A stretch of DNA of 64,000 bases from Gammaproteobacteria bacterium. GTDB taxonomy: Bacteria; Pseudomonadota; Gammaproteobacteria; Arenicellales; Poriferihabitantaceae. Numbering within the stretch: position 1 is the first letter of the stretch; each line of letters begins with the position of its first letter. Position numbers and translations under genes: made by a program. The DNA is taken from contig JAUILZ010000019.1 of NCBI GenBank assembly GCA_030432755.1, positions 1 through 64,000 on the forward strand. Direction: 5' to 3'. The notes below the pieces were generated by a model. That model ran no database searches. It worked only from the letters and a program-made list of their open reading frames with translations, and was not told where the DNA came from. Positions 7,001 to 60,830 of this stretch are shown here, in pieces.

Positions 7001-7542
7001 TCCGGTTCGAGATGCTCGCCGCGAAAATCTTCGACAAGGCGCTGCAAAACGTCGGTGGCGATCTTGTGACCAACGTGATTACCGCGGTGAATCCGTTCGA
7101 GGAGAACAAGGAGTACGTCGAGATGGAATGCGGCGCCATGTATCTCGACATCGCCGACGGGCTGGCCACCACCCGCAACGGTATCGCCATCAAGACGGAT
7201 CACGTTACGGTGCTTGGTGGTGGCGAGATCACTTTTCCCGACGAGTCACTCAAGATCGTGCTCGCGCCCAAGGCGCGCAAGGGGCTTGGTATCAGCGCGA
7301 CTTCCGTCGCCAAGATGATCCGCCTCGGCGGCACTCTCGGGGAACCCAGGGTGGAAGCGGACAGCCGCGGTATTCTGAAGTCCGGGGTAGCGCTGGGCGC
7401 GGCGATTCTTTCCGGTGGCGCTTCGTTGGTGGCCATGGGGCTGATCGACAGGTTGCACGCCAATACGGATGTCTGCGCCATCGCGAGTGGCGAGATCCAG
7501 CTGGACGACTCTGCCGCGTTCAGCGGCGAGAAGTCGCGTTAG
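4075..7542 (+). CDS. Large AsmA family protein
   Basis: A 1155-residue inner-membrane-anchored protein of the AsmA type, a group linked in established work to phospholipid transport between membranes and to outer-membrane assembly. There is one N-terminal membrane helix (residues about 8-31), then the AsmA N-terminal domain (DGRVGFRPGLALVLFAEDVRMEN), a very long beta-rich repetitive middle expected to form a periplasmic groove, and the AsmA C-terminal region with a hydrophobic tail (SGVALGAAILSGGASLVAMG). It is followed after 2 bases by the DUF938 gene. The exact member (AsmA, YhjG, YdbH or TamB-like) is not assigned, though length and N-terminus fit AsmA/YhjG best. Confidence 0.88.
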   Translation: MVKSVLRWLFRLLITAMLIAIIVPLGASLLLDQEEIKTGLNQWMQDQGGRPLIIDGRVGFRPGLALVLFAEDVRMENVSWGSRPDALNATRVEARISLPRLLQGRVVVEQVEISGATVWVERSPTGLLNFGRPPERRDEPLNPIPLPSWLGIERLQLENAQVICDLRSRTWDIRIDSGELIVPARDEPAELSLEGSVESVGITATGTLGTLENWFARADSAAELMITLADRNPFTATGRVGDVLGWRDLDISLAGQIDSVRDLTRWFRSRPIDLRRMDLSARLRQPGTVSSMALEEISGTLTWFDVPLRATGRVGTLSRLEDIDIDLAAHDDWDMRGLPLKSPPDLTARFDGEGNLSGSSKDLALTVHSLAVSAPGMLLSGAGRVESLGGDWGTPLPLALQLDEVSDLGERIGRKWPILGGLQAASNLIRKDGAFDLDDIELRGDGSLVDLTGQGAIRGLGQTPVGEVLIEGRLLKAFLERNAYALPLLPEAVDVEATWQLEGAHAALFISALDFEIPGGRISASGDIPDLAVPGSHALQFTGSVAEPVVLASALSQRWPSLPPLQATGVLEGMEDGTRHLRNLSVTGERGAESITASGTVERLGADATVELDVSTRLDPASLDIWLDGMDWFATLEPDLEVVTASFRLTGGPNAGYAVSDIAARSRLAGAGLELGGAFTAFQPLAGGLDIRLDGRFTHQPGIAEKYGMPPLASAKLAFHVPFPHPGGGLDKLDATLALAGGNLSVAGDVATLQPLRAEGLELSIQHPDLAALLPGKTRLLPEQALFVNTKLTIADGELGFDGSGRIGHDSVRGTVTWDLAQAGGRHRFVADLHTDRLDLRTLIPPAEKTGRFFSADPLVPGWMRAVDGDIRLRVNRFHSHPVVLNNLDLHAVMDAERVLMVTNAGARAGSLDMTLERAADGATSLALQVDRVPVESLRMFSQDGRMRGGIVDADIGISGSEDNLASLMASGKGYIRFEMLAAKIFDKALQNVGGDLVTNVITAVNPFEENKEYVEMECGAMYLDIADGLATTRNGIAIKTDHVTVLGGGEITFPDESLKIVLAPKARKGLGISATSVAKMIRLGGTLGEPRVEADSRGILKSGVALGAAILSGGASLVAMGLIDRLHANTDVCAIASGEIQLDDSAAFSGEKSR

Positions 7543-7544
7543 TC

Positions 7545-8168
7545 ATGCAGGTATTGCCATACAGCGCCGCGGCGGAGAACAACAAGGCGCCCATCCTCGC
7601 CGCCATCCGCGATCGCATCGCGCCAGGCCACGTGGTGCTGGAGATCGGTTCGGGCAGCGGCCAGCATGCAGTGCATTTCGCGTCCGCAATGCCCTCGGTG
7701 ACATGGATTCCGAGCGAGCAGCCATCGGCGATGGCGGGACTGCGCGCACGGCTGAACCAGGCGGGGCTTTCCAATGTCGCGGAGCCACTGGTAATCGATG
7801 TCCTGCAGTTTCCCGCGCTGCCGTCGACGGTGGACGACGTGTTCTCCGCCAACACCGCGCATATCATGTCCTGGGAAGGAGTCGCGTCGATGTTTGCCGC
7901 TGTGGCGGCTATCCTGGAGAGCGGTATTTTTGCGCTTTACGGACCGTTTCACCGCGACGGCGTTCCCACCAGCCCCGGCAACGCGGAATTCGACCATTCG
8001 CTGCGTTCGCGCGACCCGGCGATGGGCATCCGCGATGACCGTGACCTGGCGGCTTTGGCGTCCGGGTGCGGCCTGGCGCTGGTGGAAGATATCGCCATGC
8101 CCGCCAACAACCGGCTGTTGATCTGGCGGCAGGCAGCGGCTCACCGAGACGGTGCAAGCGTGGCGTAA
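7545..8168 (+). CDS. DUF938 SAM-dependent methyltransferase-like protein
   Basis: A 207-residue protein starting at ATG 7545, two bases after the AsmA stop, so translation is probably coupled. The SAM-binding glycine motif is VLEIGSGSGQHAVHFA near residue 31, and the conserved N-terminus PYSAAAENNKAPIL is typical of DUF938, as is FALYGPFHRDGVPTSPGNAEFD. Members have a class I methyltransferase fold; the substrate is unknown. The reading frame remains open upstream inside the AsmA gene, but similarity begins only at this ATG. Confidence 0.9.
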   Translation: MQVLPYSAAAENNKAPILAAIRDRIAPGHVVLEIGSGSGQHAVHFASAMPSVTWIPSEQPSAMAGLRARLNQAGLSNVAEPLVIDVLQFPALPSTVDDVFSANTAHIMSWEGVASMFAAVAAILESGIFALYGPFHRDGVPTSPGNAEFDHSLRSRDPAMGIRDDRDLAALASGCGLALVEDIAMPANNRLLIWRQAAAHRDGASVA

Positions 8169-8191
8169 CCCCCATCGACAATGAACCAGAA

Positions 8192-8207
8192 TGCACTATA
8201 ATAGTGC
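8192..8207. promoter_or_regulatory. NtrC-type enhancer site, distal
   Basis: The palindrome TGCACTATAATAGTGC agrees with the NtrC consensus half-sites TGCAC and GTGCA. It lies about 110 bases upstream of the sigma-54 element and 31 bases upstream of a second, weaker copy. Both being on the same helix face and upstream of glnA supports an enhancer role. The sequence match is direct; binding is inferred. Confidence 0.75.
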
Positions 8208-8222
8208 GATTAGCCCCCATAT

Positions 8223-8239
8223 TGCACTAAAATAGATCA
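8223..8239. promoter_or_regulatory. NtrC-type enhancer site, proximal and weaker
   Basis: The left half TTGCACTA matches the NtrC half-site; the right half is degenerate (AATAGATCA). It is spaced about three helical turns from the distal site, as in the paired glnA enhancer of enteric bacteria. Confidence 0.6.
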
Positions 8240-8303
8240 TTCTGGTTTGGGGCCGACATAGAGTCATGGCCCTAAGTTTATGAAATCATGTCGAAAAATA
8301 CCT

Positions 8304-8319
8304 TGGCATGACATTTGCT
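8304..8319 (+). promoter_or_regulatory. Sigma-54 promoter of glnA
   Basis: TGGCAT, five bases, then TTGCT gives the -24 GG and -12 GC dinucleotides at exactly the required spacing. The start of transcription would be near 8330, leaving a 5' leader of roughly 65 bases. The leader carries the Shine-Dalgarno sequence AGAGG at 8381-8385 before the glnA ATG. Confidence 0.85.
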
Positions 8320-8395
8320 ACCCACAGGGCGGACCGGCATGGCCGGCGCGACTCATTTTATTCACACAACCCAGTCCATCAGAGGTTAAAACAGA

Positions 8396-57091: not shown

Positions 57092-58702
57092 GTGAACCAC
57101 GCCGCGCCCCGGGAAGTCGAGCCCGGCCCCAATCCGCCCCCCATTGCCGACGCCCAGGACCCGCACCACGACCGCATCCTGATCCTCGACTTCGGCGCCC
57201 AGTACACCCAGCTCATCGGCCGCACGGTGCGCGAACTGGGGGTCTACTGCGAGATATTCCCCTGGGACGTCGACTACGCCGTCATCGAGGCTTTCGCCCC
57301 GCGCGGCGTGATCCTCTCCGGAGGACCGGCGTCCGCCTACGAGGACGATACCCCGGCCGCGCCCGCGGCGCTGTTCGACAGCGGCCTGCCGGTGCTCGGC
57401 ATTTGCTATGGCATGCAGACCCTGGTGGCGCAGCTGGGCGGCAGCGTCGAGAACGCCGACCATCGCGAGTACGGCCATGCGAAGGTGGAGACCCGGCGCG
57501 CCTGCCGGCTGCTCGGTGAGGCCGGCCAGGATCTCGATGTCTGGATGAGCCACGGCGACCGGGTGAGCGCGCTGCCGGAAGGATTCGAGGTGGTTGGCGT
57601 GAGCCGCAACTCACCCTACGCCGCCATCGCGAACGATGCACGTGGTTACTACGGCGTCCAGTTCCACCCCGAGGTCACCCATACCGCGGCCGGCAAGGAT
57701 ATGCTCGGGCGCTTCGTCCACGATATCTGCGGCTGCGCGGCCGACTGGGTGCCGGCGAACATCATCTCCGCCATCGTCGCCGACGTGCGCGAACGCGTCG
57801 GCAAAGAAGAGGTGATTCTCGGCCTCTCGGGCGGGGTGGATTCCTCGGTGGTCGCGGCGTTGCTGCACGAGGCCATTGGCGATCAGCTCACCTGCATCTT
57901 CGTCGATACCGGCCTCCTTCGCCTCAATGAGGGCGACCAGGTGATGGCGACCTTCGCCGAGCATCTCGGCGTGCGCGTGATCCGGGTGGACGCCGAGGAC
58001 GAGTTCCTCGCGCGCCTCGCCGGCGTGGCCGATCCCGAGGACAAGCGCCGCATCATCGGCAACCTGTTCGTCGAGATCTTCGAGCGCGAGTCAGCGAAGA
58101 TCACCGGCGCCGCCTGGCTCGCGCAGGGCACGATCTACCCCGATGTGATCGAGTCCGCCGGCAACAAGCACGGCAAGGCCAAGGTCATCAAGTCGCATCA
58201 CAATGTCGGCGGCCTGCCGGAGCACATGAAGCTCCAGCTACTGGAACCCCTGCGCGAACTCTTCAAGGACGAGGTGCGGCGCATCGGCGTGGACCTCGGC
58301 CTGCCCGAGCGTATGGTCTACCGCCACCCGTTCCCCGGCCCCGGCCTCGGGGTGCGCATCCTCGGCGAGGTGAAGAAGGAATACGCCGACATCCTCCGCC
58401 TCGCGGACGCCATCTACCTCGAGGAACTGGAGAAGCACGACCTCTACGACCAGGTCAGCCAGGCCTTTGCGGTGTTCCTGCCGGTGAAGTCAGTGGGCGT
58501 GGTCGGTGACAACCGCGCGTACGAGTACGTCATTGCTCTCAGGGCAGTGGAGACGGTGGACTTCATGACCGCCAACTGGGCGAGGCTGCCCTACGAGATG
58601 CTCGCGACCGTCTCCAGCAGAATCATCAACGAGGTGCGCGGAATCAGTCGCGTGACCTACGACATCTCGGGCAAGCCGCCGGCTACGATCGAGTGGGAGT
58701 AG
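57092..58702 (+). CDS. guaA: GMP synthase (glutamine-hydrolysing)
   Basis: Converts XMP to GMP using glutamine and ATP. The 536 residues hold a class I glutamine amidotransferase with nucleophile Cys105 in LGICYGMQT and the FHPEVTHT triad part. The PP-loop [19 protein letters not shown] and the dimerisation domain ending [14 protein letters not shown] follow. It begins at GTG 57092 and has a proline- and histidine-rich N-terminal extension of about 28 residues before [15 protein letters not shown], so a later start is possible, though no better codon is seen. Confidence 0.97.
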
Positions 58703-58771
58703 GGCAGTGGCGCTGTGCCTCCCGGGCGCCGGCCATAGCTATTCCGGCGAAGCCAGCCTGTATCAACCTAT

Positions 58772-59281
58772 ATGAACTTGTAACAACCCGCGGGTAGTGC
58801 AATACCGATTGCAACCTCGCCATCCCGACGTCGTGTACTCCGTACGCTCGCTGCCCCGGCCGGTGGCCTGGTTACGCTGGGGGCTCTCCCCGACAAGTGG
58901 GTGAAGCCGATCGTCGAGGTCGCGATACTCCCGGCGCATGCACAGTCGTCGCCAGGTTCACTGGCGACACCACCGGTTACCTCGCCGGCACCAACGATCT
59001 TTTCGTTGTCGGGCTCGGGATCTACTCCTCCCAGCGGCACGACGCTTCCAACGGCAGCTGCGATCAATCTCGTCCTCACGGTGACGCCGAATCCCGGCGC
59101 CGGCGAGATCGTCGACCAGGAGATTCTGCGCGGCGGCGTTCCGTTCGCATCGAGCCAGGTCGTGACCGACACCAACGGCCAGGTCGTGGGCAACACCAAT
59201 ACCTCGCTCTGTGGTTTGTCGAACGAACTTCGCGTCCGTTGGACCTACATGGGGCAACCGCGGAAGTTTTCTGGTCCATAA
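58772..59281 (+). pseudogene. Tat-signal secreted protein with a stop at codon 4
   Basis: An ATG at 58772 opens a frame reading MNL, then TAA (58781-58783), then an unbroken 166-codon run to the stop at 59281. Right after the TAA comes a twin-arginine signal (SRRRVLR and a hydrophobic stretch TLAAPAGGLVTLGAL) and the segment PDKWVKPIVEVAILPAHAQSS, a pattern I recall from small Tat-exported proteins of unknown role. The rest is Ser/Thr/Pro-rich, then a beta-type domain (INLVLTVTPNPGAGEIVDQEILRGG). No ATG, GTG or TTG occurs between the TAA and GTG 58901, which lies past the signal. CAA to TAA would explain it. Confidence 0.6.
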
Positions 59282-59311
59282 TCTCCGCGTAGACGTGTTT
59301 GCGGTGTGACG

Positions 59312-59329
59312 CCACCGCACCAGCGGTGG
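59312..59329 (+). terminator. Hairpin after the broken Tat gene
   Basis: Stem CCACCGC / GCGGTGG with loop ACCA, 30 bases after the stop at 59281. No T run follows, so a terminator role is weak. Confidence 0.3.
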
Positions 59330-59384
59330 TTGAAAATACGGACCGGGACTACACTTCAGACATATCCCACTCCGTTCCTTCTCC

Positions 59385-60098
59385 ATGGCAGGTAAAGGGG
59401 ACAAACTCCCCCGGAAATCGAGCAAGTCCGAAGTAGACGCGTTTATCGGGAAAATCAGGTCCACGCCGGTCGTCAAGGCCGGCGGTGACCGCGGGCGACT
59501 GATTTTCGCCATGGATGCCACGGCGAGTCGCGAACCCACCTGGGACCGGGCCTGCCAGATACAGGGTGAAATGTTCAGGGAAACCGCCACTCTCGGTGGG
59601 CTGGAGTTGCAGCTTTGCTACTACCGCGGATACGGCGAGTTCGAAGCGAGTCCCTGGTTGTCCTCCGCGGATGCATTACTGAAGCGCATGACGAGCGTAT
59701 CCTGCAGAGGTGGCTTCACCCAGATTGAAAAAGTACTGCGCCAGGCAATCAGGGAGACAAAACGGAAGAAGGTTCACGCCGTTGTTTTTGTCGGTGATTG
59801 CATGGAGGAAAAGGTGGATCGCCTGTGTCACCTGGCCGGAGAGCTCGGACTTCTCGGCGTACCCGTCTTCGTATTTCACGAGGGATCGGAGCCCGGGGCG
59901 CAACGCGCATTCAGGCAGATCGCCGGGCTGACCAACGGCGCCTATTGCTCCTTCGACGCCTCGAGCGCCGCACAGCTGCGCGACCTGTTGAGCGCGGTTG
60001 CGGTGTATGCCGCCGGTGGACGGGCCGCACTACAGGACTTCAGCAGAAAAAGCAGTGAGCTGGTGCGGCGGTTGACACACCAGCTCGACAAGGATTGA
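59385..60098 (+). CDS. VWA domain protein
   Basis: A 237-residue cytosolic protein whose core is a von Willebrand A fold. The metal site is the variant DATAS in RLIFAMDATASREPTWDRA, with conserved later segments GGFTQIEKVLRQAIRE and VVFVGDCMEE at the right distances. The N-terminus is lysine-rich and polar, with no signal peptide. A J-domain membrane protein gene starts four bases after its stop, so the two form an operon. I recall similar VWA/J-domain pairs in other proteobacteria but no experimental role. Confidence 0.8.
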   Translation: MAGKGDKLPRKSSKSEVDAFIGKIRSTPVVKAGGDRGRLIFAMDATASREPTWDRACQIQGEMFRETATLGGLELQLCYYRGYGEFEASPWLSSADALLKRMTSVSCRGGFTQIEKVLRQAIRETKRKKVHAVVFVGDCMEEKVDRLCHLAGELGLLGVPVFVFHEGSEPGAQRAFRQIAGLTNGAYCSFDASSAAQLRDLLSAVAVYAAGGRAALQDFSRKSSELVRRLTHQLDKD

Positions 60099-60101
60099 AC
60101 C

Positions 60102-60830
60102 ATGATTCGCCTGGTTGTGTTTGGCGGCCTGGCTGTCATTCTGTTCATGTTCTTCCGATGGCTCTCGCGCCAACCCCGAAAGGTCCAGTGGCAATCCATG
60201 GCAGGTCTGGTGGCGATCGTTCTGATCCTGCTCGTTGTCTCGGGTCGGGCGCATTGGCTGATGGCGATATTTGCCGCGCTCCTGCCGTTCCTGCGCGGGA
60301 TGCTGTCCCTGCTCGCGCATATCCCGCTGCTACAGCGATTGTTTGGCGGCGCGAAAGCCTCGCAGTCATCGACGACATCGAGCGGCGGGCAGACTTCCAC
60401 CGTGCGAAGCCGTTATATCCACATGACGCTGAACCACGAAACCGGAGACGTCAACGGTGAGGTGCTGGAAGGACGGTTCAAGGGAGAGACACTCGACCGG
60501 TTGGAACTCGAACAACTCCTGGAACTGTTGCAGGAGTGCGGGGATGATGAAGAATCGGTCGCCCTGCTGCAGGCCTACCTCGACCGGGTGCATGGGGATA
60601 CCTGGCAGCAACGGGCGGGTGAACAGGGACGGAAGGAAGCGTCCGACGATCCGGGCAGCATGTCGCGGGAGGAGGCGATTCAGATACTGGGACTGCAACC
60701 GGATCCAGATGAGCAGGAAATCATCCAGGCGCACCGTCGACTGATGCAGAGCGTCCACCCGGATCGCGGCGGCTCCGCCTACCTCGCGGCCAGGATCAAT
60801 CTCGCCAAGGCAACCCTGTTGGGGAAATAG
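60102..60830 (+). CDS. Membrane protein with C-terminal J domain
   Basis: A 242-residue protein. Two N-terminal membrane helices (IRLVVFGGLAVILFMFFRWL and MAGLVAIVLILLVVSG), then a third hydrophobic stretch (LMAIFAALLPFLRGMLSLLAHIPLL), a soluble middle, and a C-terminal J domain (EEAIQILGLQPDPDEQEIIQAHRRLMQSVHPDRGGS) with an intact HPD motif. This layout resembles DjlA/TIM14-type J proteins that recruit Hsp70 to a membrane. It is coupled to the VWA gene upstream. Its substrate is unknown. Confidence 0.85.
   Translation: MIRLVVFGGLAVILFMFFRWLSRQPRKVQWQSMAGLVAIVLILLVVSGRAHWLMAIFAALLPFLRGMLSLLAHIPLLQRLFGGAKASQSSTTSSGGQTSTVRSRYIHMTLNHETGDVNGEVLEGRFKGETLDRLELEQLLELLQECGDDEESVALLQAYLDRVHGDTWQQRAGEQGRKEASDDPGSMSREEAIQILGLQPDPDEQEIIQAHRRLMQSVHPDRGGSAYLAARINLAKATLLGK

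Follow-up and report, generated by a model that had tools for sequence, protein, structure and literature searches.

A probable young pseudogene in a multi-copy family of proteins with a Tat-type signal

The stretch of DNA analysed here (the window) spans 64,000 nucleotides and lies on contig C28 of a 4.12-Mb draft genome (58 contigs, 83% complete). Near its downstream end is an open frame that carries a twin-arginine-type signal and is preceded, in the same frame, by an ATG and a stop. The next two frames upstream, of 484 and 536 codons, we take to be guaB and guaA. The features of the locus are:

58772–58783, + strand: ATG AAC TTG TAA, an in-frame ATG and stop 5′ of the signal, with no SD match
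58784–58822, + strand: open stretch from the TAA to SRRR, with no standard start and no charged residue (n-region and codon comparison)
58823–58951, + strand: family-specific twin-arginine-type signal, SRRRVLR...DKWVKPIVEVAILPAHAQSS (profile match, alignment A1)
58952–59254, + strand: linker rich in Ser/Thr/Pro, then the C-terminal domain; clear relatives occur in two further genomes
59246–59256, + strand: second lesion, where the frame common to two relatives is lost (tail comparison)
59248–59292, + strand: out-of-frame remnant of the C-terminal tail, HGATAEVFWSIISA, with stop TAG at 59290–59292 (scores against the tails of L008 and L010)
59279–59281, + strand: stop of the in-frame reading, past the frame loss (sequence)
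59385–60098, downstream: VWA-like protein (Pfam E 0.02, below cut-off)
60102–60830, downstream: DnaJ-like protein (Pfam E 2.8e-5, below cut-off)

A previous, sequence-only reading of this DNA had described ATG AAC TTG TAA followed in frame by a twin-arginine signal and a long run of open codons, with no normal start between the stop and the signal. We find the same on both points. The TAA at 58781–58783 is followed by 165 open codons (58784–59278), 152 of them counted from SRRR onward, and then by a TAA at 59279–59281. Read directly, the frame contains no ATG, GTG or TTG from 58784 to the RR pair. The earliest standard start past the TAA is GTG 58901, which lies within the signal.

Openness alone is weak evidence that this frame is coding, because 75 of 5,000 single-base shuffles also keep it open. 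The codon score says little either way, since it is below zero in all six frames, although it is least negative in this one. Over 58784–58822 (13 codons only) it is worst in the frame of the RR pair. Searches with the open frame gave no Pfam or NCBIfam match up to E 1, and tblastn against phage and plasmid records gave none at E up to 0.01. The single-protein query against GTDB r220 genome contigs returned no confirmed match; neither there nor among the order genomes and the class sample was a close orthologue found. No second copy of the gene's DNA was found in the host genome at E up to 0.01. The C-terminal part, predicted from its single sequence, has a mean pLDDT of 38, too low for use. 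On the alignments described below, coding status is better shown by homology than by openness.

That homology is clearest in the signal. By eye, from the sequence and alignment A1, the RR motif, a hydrophobic stretch and an AxA-like site are all present. The 45-residue signal profile built from A1 matches at 58820–58951 with E 7.1e-18, the window sequence being itself one of the profile's 30 rows. The same profile finds eight places in the host genome (E up to 1e-3); the open frame, searched against its own genome with a limit of E 10, finds six further places, of which the weakest has E 0.02. Across the order, at least one place was found in 39 of 109 genomes, with up to 20 per genome (E up to 1e-3). 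In the class sample the signal was found in 7 of 369 genomes (E up to 1e-5); the host and others from its order make up four of these seven. Forty named loci that carry it belong to gammaproteobacterial or proteobacterial MAGs, among them one labelled Arenicellales, one Arenicella sp. and 'Marine bacterium B5-7'.

The consensus of the signal is RR-x-LL ... LP-xx-W-x-KPVV-x-SV-x-LPAHAQTS. Both arginines, the tryptophan, two prolines and the HA pair are invariant in the 30 rows of A1; 29 of these rows were chosen by our own motif pattern and one was added otherwise, so the conserved columns are biased toward that pattern. What follows the signal differs from member to member. The exterior parts of two of eight scanned members match fasciclin (E 5e-22 and 8e-21), and those of the other six gave no match up to E 0.01.

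If the gene belongs to this family, its relatives should tell us where it ought to start. Counting this gene, 150 distinct members were read together with the DNA upstream of them; these are the members listed, and the family is larger. The reading covered 151 rows, of which L155_m2 was dropped as a cut copy of L136 (it was kept in the sets of 130 and 141 rows used below). L137 and L146, which share 40 bases of signal DNA, come from different places and are both counted. Left out of the 150 are the 40 named loci and L220, the eighth host copy. Among the 150 members listed, 137 have an in-frame ATG before the RR pair, 11 have only GTG or TTG, and two, the window gene and L063, have no standard start. 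In L063 a plausible GTG that gives an n-region of the usual kind does exist, but in another frame; the shift appears to lie near a run of A.

Two further members, L043 (TAA) and L141 (TGA), have an ATG but also, inside the signal, a stop with an open frame after it. (Positions 1495–1995 of L031 are the same gene as L043.) Broken N-termini therefore occur occasionally in the family, in at least 4 of the 150 listed, because L043 and L141 also carry signal stops. This figure is a lower bound, since frame breaks that leave a chance in-frame ATG go unseen. As far as these sequences can tell, breakage of the kind seen in the window gene is uncommon among the family members listed, yet nothing out of the ordinary.

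Was it broken by a single nonsense change? The sequence-only reading proposed that one CAA-to-TAA change had interrupted an otherwise whole gene starting at ATG 58772, and suggested that the N-termini of homologues be compared. The comparison upholds the broken gene, in that 148 of the 150 members listed have a standard start where this one has none. It does not uphold the one-base reading of the break, which is not supported: the ATG has no SD match, the n-region is atypical and there is a second lesion at about 59250.

One observation does favour the proposed start. ATG 58772 lies 18 codons before the RR pair, and this spacing falls inside the range of the relatives' starts (3–75, median 12). 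However, no SD match precedes it, whereas 129 of the 137 listed members with an ATG have a match of at least three bases, by a loose criterion that takes the best ATG of each member. An SD match is also absent at two neighbouring frames (ATG 59385 and GTG 60927). From the TAA to the RR pair there are 14 residues, none of them D, E, K or R, and 36% of them are polar. The n-regions of the family, taken from the farthest start (130 rows), are on average 32% charged and 73% polar, and none is as low in either respect; when the nearest start is used instead, seven of 141 rows carry no charge and two are as poor in polar residues. A more typical n-region is read from GTG 58797, in another frame, and 33 of 130 rows are as low as it or lower in charge. 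The 5′ lesion may for this reason equally be a loss of frame. ATG 58772 is probably a chance ATG and not the lost start.

Another possibility is that the gene works from a non-standard start, either ATT 58808, with a short n-region before SRRR, or ATA 58802, as the sequence-only reading had allowed. Bacteria are known to use ATT as a start, though rarely (infC, pcnB). Nor would a short n-region be out of place here, since some relatives start three to five codons before the RR pair; moreover, the ATT version is at least as polar as 30 of 130 family rows, and the seven rows uncharged from their nearest start show that lack of charge occurs elsewhere in the family. Nevertheless, such a start has no precedent among the other 149 members listed: L063 alone of these lacks an in-frame standard start, and it appears to be out of frame. 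Both ATA and ATT are preceded by SD matches of only three bases, and a non-standard start leaves the loss of frame at the 3′ end unexplained. The suggestion found no support in our comparison, and we regard it as improbable.

Translation might instead begin at GTG 58901, leaving a remnant that would yield a cytoplasmic or poorly exported domain. This codon is the first standard start in frame past the TAA. A protein begun there, though, would be without the twin-arginine motif and the greater part of the signal; the GTG has only a three-base SD match, and the starts of 148 of the 150 members listed lie upstream of the RR pair. We think a remnant of this kind very improbable.

The early stop could also be functional, through a programmed bypass of the stop or as the end of a three-codon leader that regulates the gene. 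Short leaders exist elsewhere. Here, Rfam gave no match up to E 0.1 in 58400–59500, and simple consensus scans found no promoter-like or terminator-like site in 58600–59500. A stop combined with no standard start before the signal recurs in only one of the other 149 members listed (L063 again, apparently out of frame), and the stops of L043 and L141 sit at different places inside the signal. A functional stop is accordingly rejected for want of support; we give it hardly any credence.

Further evidence against a single break comes from the other end of the gene. One of two clear relatives there, L008 (genome G029), has the same signal and is 34% identical over window residues 13–158 (E 1.3e-12), in an alignment that is independent of the signal profile. 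The second, L010 (genome G024), is related in the C-terminal domain (39% identity) and has a different N-terminus. Both end in G-x5-[FY]W-x6, beyond the point at which the window frame reads GQPRKFSGP and stops. A matching tail is present in the window DNA in another frame (59248–59289, followed by a stop at 59290). Compared with the L008 and L010 tails, this out-of-frame tail scores 31 + 31 = 62, compared with 16 + 15 = 31 for the in-frame tail. None of 2,000 shuffles scores 62 in any of three frames. Of 2,063 sixty-base pieces of the window, one reaches that score: the piece at 59242, which is the site itself.

The in-frame stop at 59281 is thus there because the frame was lost at about 59246–59256, and the family's end, judged by these two tails, is not at 59281. 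The loss of frame rests on two sequences because only two clear relatives were found: there were no others among the 109 order genomes, and in the 369-genome class sample the C-terminal domain was found in the host only (E up to 1e-3). Weaker C-terminal matches, in G005 (E 9.6e-4), G097 (E 0.006) and G045 (E 0.003), were left out. Alignment A2 includes L008 and L010, so their match to it is by construction. Changes confined to the final dozen residues can leave a protein functional.

The 3′ loss of frame sits at a run of four G, and G runs are common places for length errors. Could the break lie in the assembly, with a normal gene in the chromosome itself and a consensus that is in error at each end of it? 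The run of G is a plausible site for an error, and the assembly is a draft, in the state of completeness given above. However, this explanation would need two separate errors within about 470 bases, and reading through the TAA yields no typical n-region. It is also made less likely by the rest of the window, which is filled with long open frames. We judge an assembly error unlikely, and think that the lesions probably arose in the cell.

Elsewhere in the window the codon scan leaves five other gaps, of 293 to 850 bases. The longest, at 7540–8389, is an 850-base gap in which the simple codon scan found no well-scoring frame of at least 50 codons.

The surroundings of the gene would suit a variable segment. 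With a codon table from four neighbouring genes, no well-scoring frame was found in 58700–60098, the VWA-like gene included. The VWA-like and DnaJ-like genes occur together at all four loci checked. The former was found in 56 of 109 order genomes, host included; the host's family is represented by 23 further genomes, and in none of them was it found. The gene next upstream, guaA, was found in three of four congeners, with 1,485, 96 and 356 bases readable after it, and in those bases the signal, VWA-like and DnaJ-like genes were not found. At the protein level the congeners gave a single line, in L173 (33% over 45 residues, E 0.064), which is at chance level; window DNA from 58703 onward had no match downstream of guaA in L172, L173 and L174. 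That the genes were not found in these bases is as expected for a dispensable gene. We suggest that 58700–60098 is a variable, possibly acquired segment that holds one. In two of the three congeners the contig ends less than 400 bases past guaA, as if the site were variable.

We can now say what this locus probably is. The frame is homologous to the listed members of the family, there is no usable start before its signal, and a further lesion is apparent from two relatives. We think it very probable that a gene encoding a protein with a Tat-type signal is broken here, and likely that it is a young pseudogene from a multi-copy, lineage-specific family, one that has lost either its start or the frame at its 5′ end, and also the frame at its 3′ end. 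The most likely explanation is a decaying copy of an ordinary secreted-protein gene, and not a novel mode of decoding.

The ancestral gene would have encoded a short charged N-terminus, a conserved signal of unusual length, a Ser/Thr/Pro linker and a small extracellular domain. The parent protein would presumably have been exported by Tat and cleaved, and the cleavage should fall after the AxA-type site in LPAHA. In the host the gene would then have lost its start, or else the frame ahead of the signal, which leaves the signal without a normal start of translation. The last ~13 codons have slipped out of frame, and any product would be missing its final segment. The gene is presumably not expressed.

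As a stopped gene, then, it carries little weight; it is one more young pseudogene. It does offer a caution: an early stop should not be taken for the only break before the gene's other end has been compared. The family is of more interest. Unlike exteriors on one conserved signal suggest a lineage-specific repertoire of surface proteins. We can also put forward, tentatively and as an unlikely proposal, that the signal is a dedicated sorting tag, in which a putative lineage-specific partner would recognize or process the W-x-KPVV-x-SV-x-LPAHA block; the window gene would be a decaying copy from a repertoire with rapid turnover or, less likely, a copy still started at ATT. What suggests this is the variety of exteriors fused to one signal (fasciclin, Thr/Pro repeats, Gly-rich and unmatched).

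How does the signal compare with known Tat signals? Like TIGR01409 and PF10518, it has an RR motif, then a hydrophobic stretch and an AxA-like site. Beyond these models the family adds the conserved block LPxxWxKPVVxSVxLPAHAQTS. The window signal segment scores 11.2 bits against TIGR01409 (E 0.37), below the cut-off of 16.7, and 11 of 30 members match that model at E up to 1 (best 3.3e-4). PF10518 matches five of 30 members in Pfam (best 0.049), and the window member has no Pfam match up to E 1. The window signal thus appears to resemble that of a Tat substrate, yet it is not filed under either model. A third model, TIGR02811, for Tat targets of formate dehydrogenase regions, matches six of 30 family members weakly (best E 7.6e-4) and the window member not at all; formate dehydrogenase models found no match in the three downstream neighbours scanned. 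No model specific to the LPAHAQ-type signal was found in Pfam or NCBIfam, and a literature search found no report of an LPAHAQ motif, or of Arenicella together with twin-arginine. Judged by that search, Pfam and NCBIfam, the signal type appears to be undescribed. A search combining twin-arginine, pseudogene and in-frame stop codon gave nothing related in the portion of the literature it covered.

As a pseudogene, finally, the gene is much like others in bacteria: a homologous frame whose relatives have standard starts elsewhere, with none usable here, and a further loss of frame. It is unlike ordinary bacterial pseudogenes in one respect. Its 165 codons hold no internal stop, and it is for this reason that we take it to be probably young.
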